Origin: Alphaproteobacteria bacterium
GTDB lineage: Bacteria; Pseudomonadota; Alphaproteobacteria; Geminicoccales; Geminicoccaceae
Length of the DNA: 37,343 nt
NCBI GenBank assembly: GCA_030431615.1
Contig: JAUIID010000026.1
Span: forward strand, 1 to 37,343
Reading direction: 5' to 3'
Shown one piece after another: positions 4,236 through 12,125 of this stretch (positions are counted from its first letter, which is position 1; each line of letters begins with the position of its first letter). Both the position numbers and the translations under genes were made by a program. The notes beneath the pieces were generated by a model. It was not told the origin of the DNA. It did not search any database and saw nothing but the letters and a program-made list of their open reading frames with translations.

Positions 4236-4985
4236 ATGAACAACAGAAAAATCCTCGTCACCGGCTCGGGCAGCGGGATCGGGGCGGCCATTGCCCGCCG
4301 GCTCGCCGGCGACGGTGCGCACATCATGCTGCATGCGCGGGCGAACCGGGCGGGCTGCGAGGCGGTTGCCCGTGACCTGCGCGAGCGGGGTGCCGAGGTC
4401 GCGATCCAGCTTGGCGACTTCGAGGACCCGGCGACCCCGGAAGCGCTCGTCGATGCCACGGTGGAGCGCTTCGGCGGGCTCGACGTGCTGGTGGCGAATG
4501 CCGGGTTTCCGGTGCTGGCACAGTTCGGCGAGCTGACCCGGGCCGATCTCGACCGCTGCTACGCCGTGATCCAGGCAGGCCTCTTCCAGATGGCGACCCG
4601 GGCGATGCCGCATCTGCAGCGCTCGGCCGCCGGGCGGATCGTCGCCATCTCCACCGGCAACGCGCATGTCTTCCGCCCCAACTACCCGATCTACCCGGCC
4701 TCCGGTGCGGCCAAGGCGGCAGCCGAGGTGCTGGTCCGCTGCCTCGCCGTCCAGCTCGCCCCTTTCGGGGTCACCGCCAATGGCGTCGTCCCCGGGCTGA
4801 TCGCCAAGGACGACGGCGTGCTCGGCCACCACGGGGCAGAGGAGGTGCCGGACTTCCTCGAGCACATTCCCATGGGCCGCATCGGCCGCCCGGACGAGGT
4901 CGCGGCCATGGTAGCCTTCCTCTGCTCGCCGGATGCCGGCTACGTCACCGGCCAGATCATTCACGTGAACGGCGGCCTGGTCTGA
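4236..4985 (+). CDS. short-chain dehydrogenase/reductase (SDR), atypical active site
   Basis: A 249-residue classical-length SDR, predicted to be NAD(P)-dependent. The Rossmann motif TGSGSGIG lies at residues 9-16, a VANAG motif follows the FGGLDVL strand, and the end reads [14 protein letters not shown] as in 3-oxoacyl-ACP-reductase-like enzymes. The catalytic region is unusual. The lysine that aligns with the family ([17 protein letters not shown]) is preceded by YPASGAA, so the residue four before it is Ser, and the nearest Tyr is seven before it instead of four. Either three residues are inserted or the Tyr has been replaced. A candidate catalytic Ser is present in IVAISTGN. Start ATG at 4236 has only a weak purine run (GGGA) upstream. 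It lies between the DUF1254 gene and the TRAP operon; substrate unknown. Confidence 0.88.
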
Positions 4986-5092
4986 GGTCCGACGAAACGT
5001 CTTTATTTCCGGGCTGCCCTGTGGCAAGCTGACCTCCAAGTAAGTAAGTGGTTGGCCATGCAGGCAAAACGCCATCAGGGAGGCAAGCGGCA

Positions 5093-6082
5093 ATGAGCTT
5101 TCACGCGAGGATCATGGGTGCGGCGCTGGCTGGCGCCACGCTGGCATGCGCCACGGCCGCCTCAGCCGAGACCCTGCGGCTCGGGCACGACCAGCCGGAG
5201 GCGCACGGCTATCAGGAGGTCGGTGTCCACCTCGACAAGCGGCTCAAGGAAGAGCTGGGCGACGACTGGGCCGTGACCATCTTCCCGGGTGCCCAGCTCG
5301 GCAACGAGATGGCGATGCTCGACAGCGTCATCGCCGGCAATCTCGACATGTCGATCGCGGCCTCGGCCAACGCCTCGACCTTCATCCCCGAGCTCGGGCT
5401 CTTCAGCGTCAGCTACGTGTTCGACGATGTCGACCACTTCCGCCGCGTGCTGAACGACGCCGAGTTCAATGCGATGATCGACGAGATCATCGCGTCGAAG
5501 GAGCTCGGCATCAAGCGCCTCGCCACCTTCACCGCCGGCGTGCGCAACGTCTACAACCGCGACAAGCCGATCACCTCGCTCGACGACCTCGACAGCATGA
5601 AGATGCGGGTCATGGCCTCGCCGGTCGAATCCAAGGTCTGGGGCGAGCTCGGCACCCTGCCGGTCGCGATCCCCTTCGGCGACGTCTACACCGGCATGCA
5701 GACCGGCCTCGTCCAGGCCGCCGAGAACGCGGCCGCGGTCTATGCCTCGAACAAGCACTACGAGGTGGCACCCTACTACTCGCTGACCGGCCACCAGTGG
5801 CTGATGGCCAATCTCTACATCAGCCAGGAGGTCTTCGACGGCCTGACGCCGGAGGCGCAGGCGGCACTGGTCGAGGTCGGTGCCGAGCTCACCGACCACA
5901 TCATCGACTACGTGGTCGCGAGCGATGCCGCGTTCGTCGAGAAGATGCAGGCCGAGTACGGCGTGCAGGTGAACGAGGTGGACACGGGCCCCTTCGTCGA
6001 GCGCCTGTCCGCCACCCAGGACGAGGTGGCGGCCGAGCTCGGCGTCGAGAACGTGCTCGCCCGGATCCGCGAGCTGAAATAG
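5093..6082 (+). CDS. TRAP transporter substrate-binding protein, DctP type (copy 1)
   Basis: A 329-residue periplasmic binding protein of a tripartite ATP-independent transporter. I chose the ATG at 5093 instead of the GTG at 5048. It has GGGAGG at 5078-5083 and begins directly with a signal peptide (MSFHARIMGAALAGATLA, cleavage about ATAASA-E). The mature part has RLGHDQPEAHGYQ, IFPGAQLGNE, the conserved ligand-pocket segment MRVMASPVESKVWGELG, and FGDVYTGMQTGLVQAAEN, all characteristic of DctP. It delivers an organic acid or related solute to DctQ/DctM. The next gene encodes a paralogue 52 nt downstream, and one 113-nt tract is nearly identical between the two. The ligand cannot be read: no family member with a known ligand is recognised here. 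Confidence 0.92.
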   Translation: MSFHARIMGAALAGATLACATAASAETLRLGHDQPEAHGYQEVGVHLDKRLKEELGDDWAVTIFPGAQLGNEMAMLDSVIAGNLDMSIAASANASTFIPELGLFSVSYVFDDVDHFRRVLNDAEFNAMIDEIIASKELGIKRLATFTAGVRNVYNRDKPITSLDDLDSMKMRVMASPVESKVWGELGTLPVAIPFGDVYTGMQTGLVQAAENAAAVYASNKHYEVAPYYSLTGHQWLMANLYISQEVFDGLTPEAQAALVEVGAELTDHIIDYVVASDAAFVEKMQAEYGVQVNEVDTGPFVERLSATQDEVAAELGVENVLARIRELK

Positions 6083-6094
6083 GCGAGAAACCCA

Positions 6095-6121
6095 GGGCGG
6101 GTTCCGGTCCGGGGCCCGCCC
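6095..6121 (+). promoter_or_regulatory. intercistronic stem-loop between the two dctP genes
   Basis: GGGCGGG at 6095-6101 is complementary to CCCGCCC at 6115-6121, with a 13-nt loop. The next gene's AAGGAGG ribosome site begins 1 nt after the 3' arm. There is no T run, so this is more likely an mRNA stability or translation-modulating hairpin than a terminator. Confidence 0.5.
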
Positions 6122-6134
6122 CAAGGAGGACACG

Positions 6135-7139
6135 ATGCAGAATGCCACGATGAGGGGCGCGCTCGGGGTAACGGCGACCGCCATGGCGCTGGTCATGGGC
6201 TGGTCCGCCGATGCGCTGGCGCAGAAGGTGCTGCGGCTCGGCCACGACCAGGTGACCGCCCATACCTACCAGCACACCACCGAGTACTTCGCCGAACGGG
6301 TGAAGGAGCTGAGCAACGGCGAGCTCGAGGTGCAGATCTTTCCGGGCGCCACGCTCGGCACCGAGACGTCGATGCTGCAGGAGGTCATCTCCGGCAATCT
6401 CGACATGTCGGTCTCGACCACCGCCAACGCCTCGAGCTTCGTGCCGTCCTTCGGCATGCTCAGCGTCAGCTACCTCTTCAGCGACGGCGACCACTTCAAG
6501 CGGACGCTTCTCGACGAGGGCTTCACCGCCGAGCTCGATGCGCTGATCGAGGCCCAGGACCCGGGCTTCATCCGCGTCGCCTCGATCACCCCGGGGGCGC
6601 GCAGCGTCTACAACATCTTCGGCCCGGTCGAGGCGCTCGACGACATCGAGGGCAAGAAGATGCGGGTCATGGCCTCGCCGGTCGAATCCAAGGTCTGGGG
6701 CCAGCTCGGCACGCTGCCGGTCGCGATCCCCTTCGGCGACGTCTATACCGGCATGCAGACCGGCCTCGTCGAGGCGGCGGAGAACTCGCCCGGCTCCTAC
6801 GTGCTGAACAAGCACTACGAGGTCGCCCCCTACTTCTCGCTGACCGAGCACCAGTGGCCCGTCTCCCTGATCTTCATGGGCGACACGAGCTGGGAGGGGC
6901 TGAGCGAGGCCGAACGCGAGGTCATCCTCCAGGCCGGCCGCGACACCGCCGCCTTCGGCGTCGACGACGCCATCAACGGCGACAACGCCCTGCTCGAGGA
7001 AATGGCGAGCAAGTACGGCGTCACCGTGAACCGCCTGGATACGGCGCCCTTCGTCGACCAGCTCGCCGCCCTGCAGGACGAGACGGCCGCCGAGCTCGGC
7101 ACCGAGGCGCTCCTCGCCCGCGTCCGCGAGCTGCGCTGA
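6135..7139 (+). CDS. TRAP transporter substrate-binding protein, DctP type (copy 2)
   Basis: A 334-residue paralogue of the preceding gene product, about half identical by eye, with the same order of motifs: RLGHDQVTAHTYQ, IFPGATLGTE, KKMRVMASPVESKVWGQLG, FGDVYTGMQTGLVEAAEN and HYEVAPYFSLTEHQWP. A signal peptide covers about residues 1-30 (TATAMALVMGWSADALAQ). The start ATG follows AAGGAGG at 6123-6129, an excellent ribosome site and stronger than that of copy 1. It should bind an organic acid in the periplasm and hand it to the shared DctQM permease. Two binding proteins with one permease may widen the substrate range, or one copy may act as a sensor. A strong hairpin follows the gene at 7150-7195, as is common after highly expressed binding-protein genes. 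Confidence 0.92.
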   Translation: MQNATMRGALGVTATAMALVMGWSADALAQKVLRLGHDQVTAHTYQHTTEYFAERVKELSNGELEVQIFPGATLGTETSMLQEVISGNLDMSVSTTANASSFVPSFGMLSVSYLFSDGDHFKRTLLDEGFTAELDALIEAQDPGFIRVASITPGARSVYNIFGPVEALDDIEGKKMRVMASPVESKVWGQLGTLPVAIPFGDVYTGMQTGLVEAAENSPGSYVLNKHYEVAPYFSLTEHQWPVSLIFMGDTSWEGLSEAEREVILQAGRDTAAFGVDDAINGDNALLEEMASKYGVTVNRLDTAPFVDQLAALQDETAAELGTEALLARVRELR

Positions 7140-7149
7140 ATGACCGATA

Positions 7150-7195
7150 GAAGCCGTCGGCCGGGGCGCCGATCCATGTCCCGGCCGGCGGCTTC
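7150..7195 (+). promoter_or_regulatory. strong intra-operon stem-loop between dctP copy 2 and dctQ
   Basis: The 16-nt arm GAAGCCGTCGGCCGGG (7150-7165) pairs with CCCGGCCGGCGGCTTC (7180-7195) with one G-U pair and a 14-nt loop. There is no T tract after it, and dctQ begins at 7220. It probably protects the upstream binding-protein mRNA or attenuates transcription into the membrane-subunit genes; that role is inferred from position. Confidence 0.65.
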
Positions 7196-7219
7196 GTCGT
7201 GTCCGGCCCGGGGGCGCGC

Positions 7220-7765
7220 ATGAGCGACTCGCCCGCAGCGACCCCTGGGCCCGCCTATACGCGGCTCTGCTGGCTCAACGAGCGGATCGAGCGGGTCTTC
7301 GCGCTCGCCGCCGGAGCCTGCCTCGCCCTCTTCACTGTGGTCGTCGCCATCGACGTCGTCTACCGCCAGGTGCTGGCCCAGCCGATGATGTGGCCGTCCG
7401 AGTGGTCGGTCATGGCCTTTGTCTGGTCGGTGATGCTGGGGGCTGCCGTCTCCGCCAGCCGGCAGTCGCATTTCGTCGTCGTGCTGGTCGCCGACCGGGG
7501 GCGCGCCGGCGACCACGTGCTGCGCGCCGTCGTGGCCATTGCGGCCGTGCTCTTCTCCCTCGTGCTCGTCTATTTCGGCTGGCGCATGATGATGACCGGG
7601 ACGCGCCGCTTCACCCCGATGATGGGGTATCCCATGACCTACGTCTTCGCCGCCTTCCCGGTGGCCGGCATTGCCTTCCTCCTCTTCTCGGTCGAGCAGC
7701 TCATCGCCGCCGTGCGCCGCTACACGCCACGGCATTCGCCGCACACCGAGGTGGGCGGCGAATGA
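7220..7765 (+). CDS. TRAP transporter small permease, DctQ type
   Basis: A 181-residue membrane protein, usual for DctQ. Four hydrophobic segments are visible: FALAAGACLALFTVVVAIDVV, the WSVMAFVWSVMLGAAVSA helix, VVAIAAVLFSLVLVYFGW, and MTYVFAAFPVAGIAFLLFSV. The pattern DVVYRQVLAQPMMWPSEW and the RQSHFVVVLV segment are typical of the family. The ATG at 7220 is preferred; an in-frame GTG at 7199 would add seven residues and cannot be excluded, as both have G-rich sequence upstream. The 3' end overlaps dctM by 4 nt (ATGA), as in most TRAP operons. Acts with DctM in the inner membrane. Confidence 0.9.
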   Translation: MSDSPAATPGPAYTRLCWLNERIERVFALAAGACLALFTVVVAIDVVYRQVLAQPMMWPSEWSVMAFVWSVMLGAAVSASRQSHFVVVLVADRGRAGDHVLRAVVAIAAVLFSLVLVYFGWRMMMTGTRRFTPMMGYPMTYVFAAFPVAGIAFLLFSVEQLIAAVRRYTPRHSPHTEVGGE

Positions 7766-9069: not shown

Positions 9070-9193
9070 GAGCGCCTCCCCCCCCTGGCCGTAGACGAGG
9101 AAGGCAAGACGAACGGCGTGCAGCGTAGTCCGCCTACGTGAGCACCGATCGTTCGCAGCCTGACGAAGTATACGGTCGGCGGGGGAGGCGCTC
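9070..9193. repeat. ~124-nt imperfect palindrome between convergent dctM and maoC
   Basis: The outer arms GAGCGCCTCCCCC (9070-9082) and GGGGGAGGCGCTC (9181-9193) are perfect 13-nt complements. Inside, the two sides still match imperfectly (CCGTA..AC near 9089 against GT.TACGG near 9171; GAACG near 9111 against CGTTC near 9150). The centre is a small hairpin, CGTAG-TCCGC-CTACG, at 9125-9139. It fills nearly the whole gap between two convergent genes and touches the maoC stop. It may be a bidirectional terminator or a copy of a dispersed intergenic repeat; no second copy is in the window. Confidence 0.6.
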
Positions 9194-9632
9194 AGACGTC
9201 GCGTGGCACCCAGGCGAGGAGATGCTCCGCCACCAGCACCGTCTCGCCTGCCTGGTTGGTCATCTCGACCCTGCTTCTCGAGCGCCGGCGCTCCTGGTCC
9301 ACCTCGGCCACCTGGTAGGCGACGGTGATCGTGTCGCCGATGAAGACGGGCTTGAGGAAGCGCACCTTGTCGTAGCCGGCCGAAACCGGCGTGAAGGGCG
9401 AATCGGCCGTCGTGTAGCGCGAGCTCATCATCGAGGCCGTGTTCGAGGAGAGCGAGAGCACCAGGAGCCCGTGCGCGATCCGCCGGCCGAAGACCGTCGT
9501 CTTCATGTACTCCTCGTTGACATGCACCTTGTCGAAATCGCCGCTGATGCCGGAGAACAGGTAGAAGTCCGTCTCGCCCAGGGTCTTCGAAAAGCGCACC
9601 TCGGCGCCGATCTCGGCCGGAATGGCTGTCAT
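9192..9632 (-). CDS. MaoC-like (R)-enoyl-CoA hydratase/dehydratase
   Basis: A 146-residue single hot-dog domain protein. The catalytic motif is present as SGDFDKVHVNEEY near residues 30-42 (the Asp and His of the D-x4-H hydratase-2 motif), followed by GRRIAHGLLVLSL, the helix that packs under the active site. PVFIGDTITVAYQVAEV is the usual second half. It should hydrate trans-2-enoyl-CoA or act on a related acyl-CoA. The ATG start at 9632 has GGAGA about 9 nt upstream. It is convergent with dctM but belongs logically with the CoA-transferase as a CoA-ester pathway enzyme. Its upstream side faces the phased palindrome array at 9777-9922, which is therefore a candidate regulator binding region for it. 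Confidence 0.9.
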   Translation of the reverse strand: MTAIPAEIGAEVRFSKTLGETDFYLFSGISGDFDKVHVNEEYMKTTVFGRRIAHGLLVLSLSSNTASMMSSRYTTADSPFTPVSAGYDKVRFLKPVFIGDTITVAYQVAEVDQERRRSRSRVEMTNQAGETVLVAEHLLAWVPRDV

Positions 9633-9776: not shown

Positions 9777-9922
9777 TGTCGCATCCGACGCAACGAAAGC
9801 GCTCGGGTTGTCGCATATAACGCGACACTTTGCTCGGCACTGTCGCGTTATATGCGACAGTGAGCGCATGGCTGTCGCATATGATGCGACAGATTTCCGG
9901 CGATGTCGCATATTCCGCGACA
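9777..9922. repeat. phased array of five TGTCGC-N7-GCGACA palindromes
   Basis: Four intact 19-bp sites lie at 9809-9827, 9841-9859, 9873-9891 and 9904-9922; a degenerate fifth (TGTCGC followed by GCAACG) is at 9777-9795. Centres are 32, 32, 32 and 31 bp apart, about three helical turns. Spacers are 12-13 nt. The site at 9841-9859 is the exact reverse complement of that at 9809-9827, so the pair could also fold into a 19-bp hairpin. This looks like an operator or protein-loading array. It lies 145-290 bp upstream of the maoC start and about 770-920 bp upstream of the exopolysaccharide transferase gene. The binding protein is unknown. Confidence 0.85.
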
Positions 9923-9928
9923 GTTCGC

Positions 9929-10010
9929 GACGATCGAACCCACGGAATCGACGAACCAACCCAGGGATTCGACGAACGAACCCGAGGGATGACCAACGAA
10001 CCCAGGCATC
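9929..10010. repeat. four tandem 20-21 bp direct repeats
   Basis: Four contiguous imperfect units begin at 9929, 9950, 9971 and 9991, each of the form GACSAWCSAACCC followed by an RGG/AGG-AT tail. Period is 21, 21 and 20 bp, two helical turns. The block starts 6 nt after the last palindrome of the neighbouring array, suggesting one composite element. No gene runs through it convincingly. Confidence 0.75.
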
Positions 10011-10694
10011 CGCAACCTGCTGCATTAGAAGCCATTTTCGCCGTTCACGGCAATCCTACAGGCCGCCCGACCGCGCCCGAAGCCGCATTTTGCCGAAGGA
10101 ACCCGCGGGCTTGCATTCGCTGTAGAAATAGGATAATATACTCAATAGTCGCATGGCCGGTCGCCGGCGGCGTGGCGTTGGTGCAACGATCCGGCTCTCG
10201 AATGCCTGGATGAAACTGCCGCAGCGCCGGGGCCGTCTCACTCCATCCTGGGCACCCCACGGCCGCCGGCCAATAGCTGCGTGAAGTACCGATGAAAATC
10301 AAAGCGAATACGACGATTCGATCATAACCATTCGGTGAACGGCCGGGTAACCGTGAAATCCGGTTGGTTGCTGCAGTGCGTCAAGTCTTCGATCACGCCG
10401 GAGCGCGGCAACGCTTGCAAGTCGATCGGCCCGTCTGCCGCAACATCGACGGGTCAAGTGTTTCAGCGCGATGGCCGAAATTTTCCGGCGACAGAGCGGC
10501 TGCCGATTCTTGGATAGGGCGGCTGTAGTTGATGATCTCCGCCGCGGGCGACATCCGGTCGTTAAGAGCGGGTGGCAATGAGCGTCGACTTTTGGTAGAA
10601 TACAAGCTGGAAACGAAGAGAATGGGCAGCTCGTTCCGGAGCCGACCGGCCGAGAACTGCCGCGTGCAAGCGGGTGGTAATAGGAGCGGTCGCC
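10011..10694. other. long non-coding leader region before the exopolysaccharide locus
   Basis: About 680 bp without a convincing gene. Base composition is less GC-rich than in coding neighbours, and short open frames here (for example 10335-10517) lack a good ribosome site and recognisable sequence. A good sigma70-type promoter lies at 10111-10139. The final stretch 10590-10690 holds AT-richer sequence and the TAGGAG ribosome site of the first exopolysaccharide gene. No tRNA or IS end was seen. Confidence 0.5.
10111..10139 (+). promoter_or_regulatory. candidate sigma70-type promoter
   Basis: TTGCAT (10111-10116) and TAATAT (10134-10139) are separated by exactly 17 bp, and the following bases are AT-rich. 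It is the best sigma70-like pair in this gap. The first gene downstream on this strand starts at 10695, so the transcript would have either a ~550-nt leader or be a small RNA. Confidence 0.5.
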
Positions 10695-12125
10695 ATGAGT
10701 ACGGTGATGGCCCGGGCTGGTATCCTGCGCGACTCCGTGTCGATGCGGGCCATGGATCCCTGGCAGCGTTCATTGGCTGTAACGCTGCGCATCGCGGACA
10801 TAAGCATCGTTCTCCTGGCGGGCTTCGCCAGCTATGCGCTGCGGTTCGACGGTGATTTGCCGGACGAGCATGTGGAGTTCCTGGCGCTGACGCTGGGTGT
10901 GCTGTTCGCGGTCCAATGCCTGACCATCGCCGGTTGCTACAACGAGCGGAGCATCGACCGGCTGTCGAGCCAGCTGCCGCAGGCGGTGGTCGGCTGGTCG
11001 GCAGCGCTCGGCTGCACCCTCGCCACCCTCTTCCTGCTCAAGCAGATCGATCCCCTCTCGCGCATGTGGATCGCGACCTGGTTCGTCCTGGTGCTGGTCG
11101 GGCTCCTGGCGGTTCGCTGCACGGGCAAGCAGCTCATCATCCGCGCCCGGGCGAGCGGGGCACTCCTGCGCCGGGTGGCCATCGTCCGCGAGCAGGGCAT
11201 GTCGCTGGAGCGGATCCTCGACGGCATCGAGGCCAACCCGTCGCTGACGCCGGTTGCCGAGATGGAGGTCGACTTCACCGACCCCGAGCAGGTCGACGCC
11301 GTGATTCGCGAGGTGCCGCGCGTGGGCCAGATCGAGCAGCTGGTGCTGGTGTGCAACCCGGCGCATACGGTCGCGCTCAGCCGCATCGTCGAGGCGCTCC
11401 GCCAGTTTCCGATCGAAGTCAGCCTCGTCAGCGGCGTGCTCGCCAAGGAGCTCCCGGTCATCGGCATGCGCGCCATCGGCTCCTTGCCCGCCACGGTCCT
11501 GGTCGAGCGGCCTCTCGACGGCCCCGTGTCCACGCTGAAGGATGCGTTCGACCGGCTGGTCGCCCTGGGACTGCTCGTCCTGCTGGCGCCGCTGATGCTC
11601 CTCGTGGCGCTCGCCATCAAGCTGGACAGCCCTGGCCCCGTGCTCTTCCGCCAGATGCGCGTGGGGTTCGATCGCAAGCGGATCGAAGTGCTCAAGTTCC
11701 GCACCATGCGCCACGAGCTCTGCGACGCGCCCGGTGCCGTAACCGTGACGCAGGCGACGCGCGACGACCACCGGGTAACGGCGGTGGGTCGCATCCTGCG
11801 GCGCACCAGCCTCGACGAGCTGCCGCAGCTCCTGAACGTGCTGAAGGGCGAGATGTCCCTCGTCGGGCCGCGTCCGCACGCCGTCGCCCACAACGACCAC
11901 TATGCCGCGCTGATCGACGGCTATCTGGGCCGCCACCGGGTCAAGCCGGGCATTACCGGCTGGGCCCAGGTCAATGGCTGCCGCGGCGAGACGATCACGG
12001 TCGACGACATGCGGCGGCGGATCGCCCTGGACCTGCAATATATCGACAACTGGTCGCTGGGGCTGGATCTGAAGATCCTGCTGCGCACTCCACTCGTCGG
12101 CCTCGTCAATGAGAAGGCGTACTGA
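10695..12125 (+). CDS. polyprenyl-phosphate sugar-1-phosphate transferase (exopolysaccharide initiation)
   Basis: A 476-residue enzyme of the WcaJ/ExoY/PssY group that transfers the first sugar phosphate to undecaprenyl phosphate at the inner membrane. The N-terminal half has about four hydrophobic segments (ADISIVLLAGFASYALRF onward) and a cytoplasmic CoA-binding-like region. The last ~190 residues form the bacterial sugar transferase domain: a membrane hairpin (LVALGLLVLLAPLMLLVALA), then KLDSPGPVLFRQMRVGFD, FKFRTM-like VLKFRTMRHE, RRTSLDELPQLLNVLKGEMS, LVGPRPHA and KPGITGWAQVNG. Start ATG at 10695 has TAGGAG at 10681-10686. It is the first gene of the polysaccharide locus. The sugar it transfers (glucose, galactose or other) cannot be told from sequence alone. 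Confidence 0.93.
   Translation: MSTVMARAGILRDSVSMRAMDPWQRSLAVTLRIADISIVLLAGFASYALRFDGDLPDEHVEFLALTLGVLFAVQCLTIAGCYNERSIDRLSSQLPQAVVGWSAALGCTLATLFLLKQIDPLSRMWIATWFVLVLVGLLAVRCTGKQLIIRARASGALLRRVAIVREQGMSLERILDGIEANPSLTPVAEMEVDFTDPEQVDAVIREVPRVGQIEQLVLVCNPAHTVALSRIVEALRQFPIEVSLVSGVLAKELPVIGMRAIGSLPATVLVERPLDGPVSTLKDAFDRLVALGLLVLLAPLMLLVALAIKLDSPGPVLFRQMRVGFDRKRIEVLKFRTMRHELCDAPGAVTVTQATRDDHRVTAVGRILRRTSLDELPQLLNVLKGEMSLVGPRPHAVAHNDHYAALIDGYLGRHRVKPGITGWAQVNGCRGETITVDDMRRRIALDLQYIDNWSLGLDLKILLRTPLVGLVNEKAY

Follow-up and report, generated by a model that had tools for sequence, protein, structure and literature searches.

The question raised by this locus is why five palindromes lie on one face of the DNA helix in a gap between genes, in a part of an alphaproteobacterial genome where no regulator is encoded. 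The window, by which is meant the whole stretch of 37,343 nucleotides that was analyzed, carries this array between a MaoC-like gene and a polysaccharide locus.

An array of five dyads beside a polysaccharide locus

The five TGTCGC-N7-GCGACA dyads of the original prediction are present at 9777-9922, four of them perfect and one degenerate, and the steps between their centers (9786, 9818, 9850, 9882, and 9913) are 32, 32, 32, and 31 bp, as had been claimed. The array lies outside genes, on one side of a polysaccharide locus of which the first gene encodes a sugar transferase (Table 1). The absence of a regulator was also borne out: none was found near the window copy, and the copies have no recurrent gene family as a neighbor. 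The dyads are followed by further parts that belong to the same element, up to an outward promoter. Compared with the family form TTGACC-N17-TATAAA, this promoter is weak, and it was missed by a strict promoter scan; a second promoter-like match is available to the exopolysaccharide gene. At the corresponding locus of the congeneric genome G002, the contig appears to stop within the sugar-transferase gene.

Table 1 Parts of the element and neighboring features in the window
Feature	Positions	Strand	Sequence or remark
MaoC-like gene	9192-9632	-	
Dyad 5 (distal, degenerate)	9777-9795		TGTCGCATCCGACGCAACG; two mismatches
Dyad 4 (perfect)	9809-9827		TGTCGCATATAACGCGACA
Dyad 3 (perfect)	9841-9859		TGTCGCGTTATATGCGACA
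Dyad 2 (perfect)	9873-9891		TGTCGCATATGATGCGACA
Dyad 1 (perfect)	9904-9922		TGTCGCATATTCCGCGACA; 31-bp step, adjoins the direct repeats
Four direct repeats, each ~21 bp or two helical turns	9923-10002	-	minus-strand reading GGTTCGTTCGTCGAATCC...; in nearly all copies and in the congeneric genomes
Variable stretch, distal repeats to promoter-proximal motif	10003-10087		
Promoter-proximal motif (single, repeat-like)	10088-10103	-	GGTTCCTTCGGCAAAA; family form GGTTCGTTCGGCAAAA
Outward sigma70-like promoter, left end of the element	10111-10139	+	TTGCAT-N17-TAATAT; faces the exopolysaccharide locus
Second promoter-like match	10572-10601		for the exopolysaccharide gene
Sugar-transferase gene, first of the polysaccharide locus	10674-12125	+	

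Copy number, anatomy, and dispersal of the element

The genome from which the window comes (G000; Geminicoccaceae-type; 5.33 Mb in 314 contigs) contains 124 matches to a paired-dyad pattern and 87 to a three-dyad pattern, vs none for a reversed-pattern control in either case, and 197 single dyads with one mismatch or none vs 13 in the control. The dyad array is not a chance product. That the motif might occur as random single sites genome-wide was checked and does not hold. Nearly all dyads of the genome fall within such arrays. At least 38 copies of the element are present, two of them partial (L030-L060, L095-L098, L126, L128, and the window copy). Most arrays have exactly five dyads, at steps of 31, 32, 32, and 32 bp when the direct repeats are on the left; the spacing is thus polar, with the 31-bp step adjoining the repeats. 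A dyad-chain search gave scores of 35-40 out of 40 in 47 of 47 arrays, 34 from this genome among them, while control windows scored 22.7 ± 1.3 with a maximum of 28, and a sixth slot on either side of the array was at background level. Copies recovered independently of the dyads, with the promoter or the direct repeats as the query, carry dyads too, some being partly decayed (two dyads in L095, four in L126).

Each array is part of a non-coding element of ~350-450 bp in which no gene is apparent. With the repeats placed on the left, the order is outward promoter, GGTTCGTTCGGC motif, three to five direct repeats of 21 bp, and dyads. The left end reads TAGGATTTATAGCCTAT-N~12-GTCAAGC and forms, on the reverse strand, the sigma70-like promoter that points away from the array. 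It is followed by the promoter-proximal motif GGTTCGTTCGGCAAAA, some 60-100 bases of variable sequence, and the direct repeats, which are units of GGTTCGTTCGTCGAATCCGTG. In 29 of 34 copies, the best -35/-10 pair of the outward strand had a spacing of 17 bp; the mean promoter score was 9.1 on this strand vs 7.4 on the other strand and 7.2 in shuffled sequences. The distance from promoter to array showed no clear 10.5-bp phasing (p about 0.05). The left-end pattern has 31 matches in the genome, most of them in dyad-bearing elements; the inspected matches L125, L127, and L129 are without dyads.

The right end in many copies is a 17-bp near-palindrome, CATAAGCGTTCGTGATG, which mostly begins 67 bp past dyad 5 after bases that are not conserved. 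In one orientation or the other, this near-palindrome also makes up spacer 2 of almost every copy with the right-end one, the two occurrences being ~164 bp apart in the genome of the window and ~163 bp in G002 (measured by hand). Between dyads that otherwise match, the sequence TCACGATCGCTTA is found now in one orientation and now in the other, as though it had been flipped (spacer 2 in L030-L058 and spacer 1 in L077-L093).

The sequence GANTC is found 6.6 times per kb in the elements vs 1.3 in the flanks, a difference of about five-fold, and 109 times in total vs 78 ± 9 in shuffled elements. It occurs in 72 of 177 direct-repeat units (41 %). Over the elements of G000 and of the congeneric genomes G001 and G002, its frequency is about 5 to 11 times that of the flanks, and the enrichment sits mainly in the 21-bp repeats and in TGAGTC half-sites. 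Genome-wide, GANTC is not specifically avoided: palindromes that share its base composition are about equally rare.

The sites at which the element resides differ between species. Only 2 of 18 sampled positions are common to the elements of the relatives and those of the window genome (L078/L030 and L090/L057). When the ends of four genes that precede elements in the window genome were located in G001 and G002, 6 of 7 orthologous ends were without an element; at the remaining one, a single repeat, a single site, and the right end are left as a remnant. No common function and no recurrent dedicated gene family was found among the flanking genes, and a shared regulon was rejected. Tandem neighbors are co-oriented with the element in about 11 cases and opposed in about 2, by simple GC-based gene calls that are approximate. 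By a hand count on equally approximate gene calls, the promoter is antisense to the left neighbor in about two thirds of the copies and sense in about a third. An origin from phages or plasmids was rejected, as viral contigs, phages, and plasmids gave no match to the element; three viral matches to the repeat pattern are without the rest of it.

Constraint on the sites and their divergence between species

The twelve arm positions are near-invariant across 165 sites, which partly reflects the way in which copies were found. Mean pairwise identity is 0.99 in the arms and 0.46 in the spacers. Among close copies, L040 and L049 differ at 15 of 86 non-arm positions and L030 and L036 at 9 of 86, vs 0 of 60 arm positions in both pairs. 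Arms that stay unchanged between diverged close copies argue for selection, and arms that are held where cores and spacers vary would favor a function of the resident copies over neutral relics.

The cores are always of the form R-N5-Y, position 7 being A or G and position 13 C or T in 165 of 165 sites. The outer pair is G..C in 58 of these, A..C in 51, G..T in 48, and A..T in 8; because A..C and G..T are common, base pairing is not what is kept. These counts bear on the proposal that the elements act as folded RNA or as single-stranded DNA hairpins. Every site in G000 is an inverted repeat, and the arrays of G001 and G002 fold far better than shuffled sequences (z down to -11) because neighboring sites there are often complementary. 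However, both strands fold about equally well, the sites of G001 and G002 are often not self-complementary, and, far from being maintained, pairing across the core is avoided, with A..T in 8 and A..C in 51 of 165. RNA structure was rejected as an explanation: the inverted sites account for the strong folding, the core statistics contradict a role of RNA structure, and no Rfam family matches the element. A hairpin function is therefore considered very improbable.

The mean dyad spacing is 31.7, 31.6, and 31.5 bp in three genomes, which is ~3 x 10.5 bp: a spacing of 31.7 bp corresponds to three turns of DNA, and the direct repeats to two. These means and the purine/pyrimidine statistics of the cores lend good support to the original suggestion of operator-like sites on one helical face, as expected of a cooperative dimer.

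The exact dyad pair is absent from G001 and G002. The same element was reached in these genomes through the direct repeats, and it has five sites at 31-32 bp with R-N5-Y cores, with half-sites TGGCGCA, TGAGTCG, TGTGTCG, and TGCGTCA (TGDSKC) vs TGTCGCR in the window genome. CAKZLS, a MAG labelled Rhodospirillales (L114 and L115), has a third type of half-site, YGTTGC, in the same layout. Conservation in close relatives thus applies to the spacing and not to the sequence of the arms. The direct repeats were not found in 20 other genomes of the family, nor the dyad chain in 28, and the exact paired dyad, a pattern blind to other half-sites, did not occur in any of 384 further genomes of the class. 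Repeat-pair matches outside the Geminicoccaceae and Rhodospirillales MAGs are presumed to be due to chance because the taxa are scattered.

The right-end near-palindrome has its second occurrence in spacer 2 in the window genome and in spacer 1 in the relatives. As five sites are shared despite this shifted register, the comparison suggests that the number of sites may matter. The layout has stayed fixed while the half-site preference of a putative binding protein would have diverged between species. A more specific version of this is possible but doubtful: a genus-restricted protein with a fast-changing half-site preference would nucleate a five-dimer complex at about 40 elements and co-evolve with them, the layout of five sites, three helical turns apart and with R-N5-Y cores, remaining fixed and hundreds of half-sites per genome shifting together to TGTCGC, TGDSKC, or YGTTGC.

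Some further observations were made in the relatives. The element L092 of G001 directly follows a tRNA-Ala-like sequence, and this element and L087, L088, L090, and L091 of the same genome are no more than about 140 bases away from a contig end; because repeats break assembly, the copy number in G001 is probably underestimated. In the right flanks of L081, L082, and L089 (G001/G002), a terminator-like hairpin, GGGGAGGCAGCGCCTCCCCG, followed by GGGCCCCTCCGG, is present just past the element.

Possible roles and comparison with known systems

The favored but still tentative reading, to which we assign a probability of roughly 0.38, is that of a dispersed non-coding regulatory element, or promoter cassette, in which a dedicated dimeric protein binds the dyads cooperatively and controls the outward promoter. 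Dimers of this putative DNA-binding protein would fill the five dyads on one helical face, and a second protein would probably read the GGGTTCGTTCG (GGTTCG) repeats, both beside the promoter and farther up by the dyads. Together, the two proteins might loop or wrap the DNA into a nucleoprotein complex. Such a complex would control the outward promoter and probably keep it silent for the most part, as the promoter is often aimed into the 3' end of a neighboring gene. The element itself would spread between intergenic sites. Counting against the promoter-cassette reading are the mostly antisense direction of the promoter, its weakness in the window, the lack of a shared function in the flanks, and the absence of clear phasing.

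The dispersal could also be that of a non-autonomous transposable element: a transposase or recombinase complex would bind the dyads and repeats as subterminal sites, and the promoter would be incidental or derived from a lost coding part. Dispersed copies that are present or absent between congeneric genomes, without an apparent gene and beside unrelated neighbors, fit this, as do the sharp ends defined by close copies at unrelated places and the asymmetric cores within inverted arms, which resemble recombinase core sites. However, inspection of the defined ends by eye showed neither terminal inverted repeats nor target duplications, a longer version with coding sequence was not found, and arms unchanged where 10-17 % of the other positions differ suggest selection on resident copies. 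Transposition is rated as rather unlikely, and no lower, because a transposable element with a fast turnover could give a similar picture.

The original prediction had also offered a partition or loading site and a replication or conjugation element; a single partition, loading, or conjugation locus is not supported, given at least 38 copies whose positions vary from species to species. A related proposal is that the arrays are chromosome-organizing sites at which an architectural, segregation, or nucleoid-occlusion protein nucleates at about 40 places. It would account for at least 38 scattered copies without a functional theme, the fixed number of sites, their helical phasing, and the confinement of nearly all dyads of the genome to arrays, but positions are mostly unshared between congeneric genomes (2 of 18 sampled) and the promoter is a near-constant part of the element. 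A candidate protein was considered at L126 (contig C307 of the window genome), where a VirC1/MipZ-like ParA ATPase and a 94-aa ribbon-helix-helix protein are encoded at 4437-5343, directly before the element. The pair was rejected as specificity factor: the ribbon-helix-helix protein also occurs in genomes of the family without arrays, its recognition strand is identical in species with different half-sites, and it has no adjoining element in G001 and G002. The wider occurrence of the pair, the invariant strand, and the missing element also weigh against chromosome organization. The arrangement of type Ib ParA/ribbon-helix-helix partition, a centromere array read by the adjoining ribbon-helix-helix partner, was thus not found. 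On the far side of the L126 element lies an AT-rich island (5501-7500; about 44-55 % GC vs about 65-75 % in the adjoining DNA) with frames of 392 and 286 aa that have no Pfam, NCBIfam, or PADLOC match; on this side, dyad 5 is missing. Chromosome organization is regarded as improbable and, like a hairpin function, as less likely than transposition. The remaining probability is that of causes not considered.

No description of a dispersed five-dyad element was found in the literature. Like the present element, the Caulobacter CcrM-associated intergenic repeats (CIR), one kind of alphaproteobacterial intergenic repeat, are dispersed and intergenic (PMC10969869). Repeats of the CIR type are associated with GANTC sites; the approximately five-fold enrichment of GANTC reported here comes mainly from the direct repeats, of which 41 % carry it. 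To our knowledge, CIR do not include arrays fixed at five dyads together with an outward promoter. Correia elements of Neisseria are many small intergenic elements with sigma70-like promoters and protein-binding sites, and they are MITEs with terminal inverted repeats; no such repeats were found in the present element, and a phased dyad array does not figure in that account of Correia elements (PMC10969869). The left end, TAGGATTTATAGCC, is unrelated to the right end, CATAACGATTCGTGATGG, by eye in close copies, and no target-site duplication was seen by eye at the defined ends, where a clean empty site for comparison is lacking. The element is MITE-like in being small, non-coding, multicopy, intergenic, and present or absent between relatives. 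REP sequences and REPINs have a stem palindrome of 8-9 bp with a short loop and a CGTC/TGTC or GTAG tag (PMC3733652); the arms here are of 6 bp, the 7-bp core often has A..C or G..T as its outer pair, and the unit is fixed at five sites. The arrays also differ from CRISPR arrays, in which longer repeats alternate with unique spacers of similar size beside a leader and cas genes: dyads are of 19 bp and spacers of 12-13 bp, their number is nearly always five, the promoter faces away, and there is no common neighbor gene.

Phage L5 stoperators and the plasmid centromere sopC are repeated palindromic or operator sites with a dedicated binding protein. They belong to one phage or plasmid, whereas here at least 38 chromosomal copies with species-specific half-sites are present. 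The BOX elements of Streptococcus pneumoniae are intergenic repeats of a composite, modular build, in which the middle module is repeated in tandem, and they can affect nearby expression (PMC3049150); the number of boxB modules varies, whereas the dyads are fixed at five, operator-like, and near-invariant in their arms. The element resembles composite intergenic repeats, but with an unusual operator-like fixed architecture. Dispersed intergenic repeats are common, but few have the look of a control region assembled in advance, in which the number of sites is fixed and the sites show helical phasing and polarity. With at least 38 copies in one genome and sister species that have the same scaffold with different half-sites, a natural series is at hand in which both the possible spread of a mobile repeat as a regulated promoter and the way in which hundreds of half-sites would change specificity jointly with the protein that binds them become testable.
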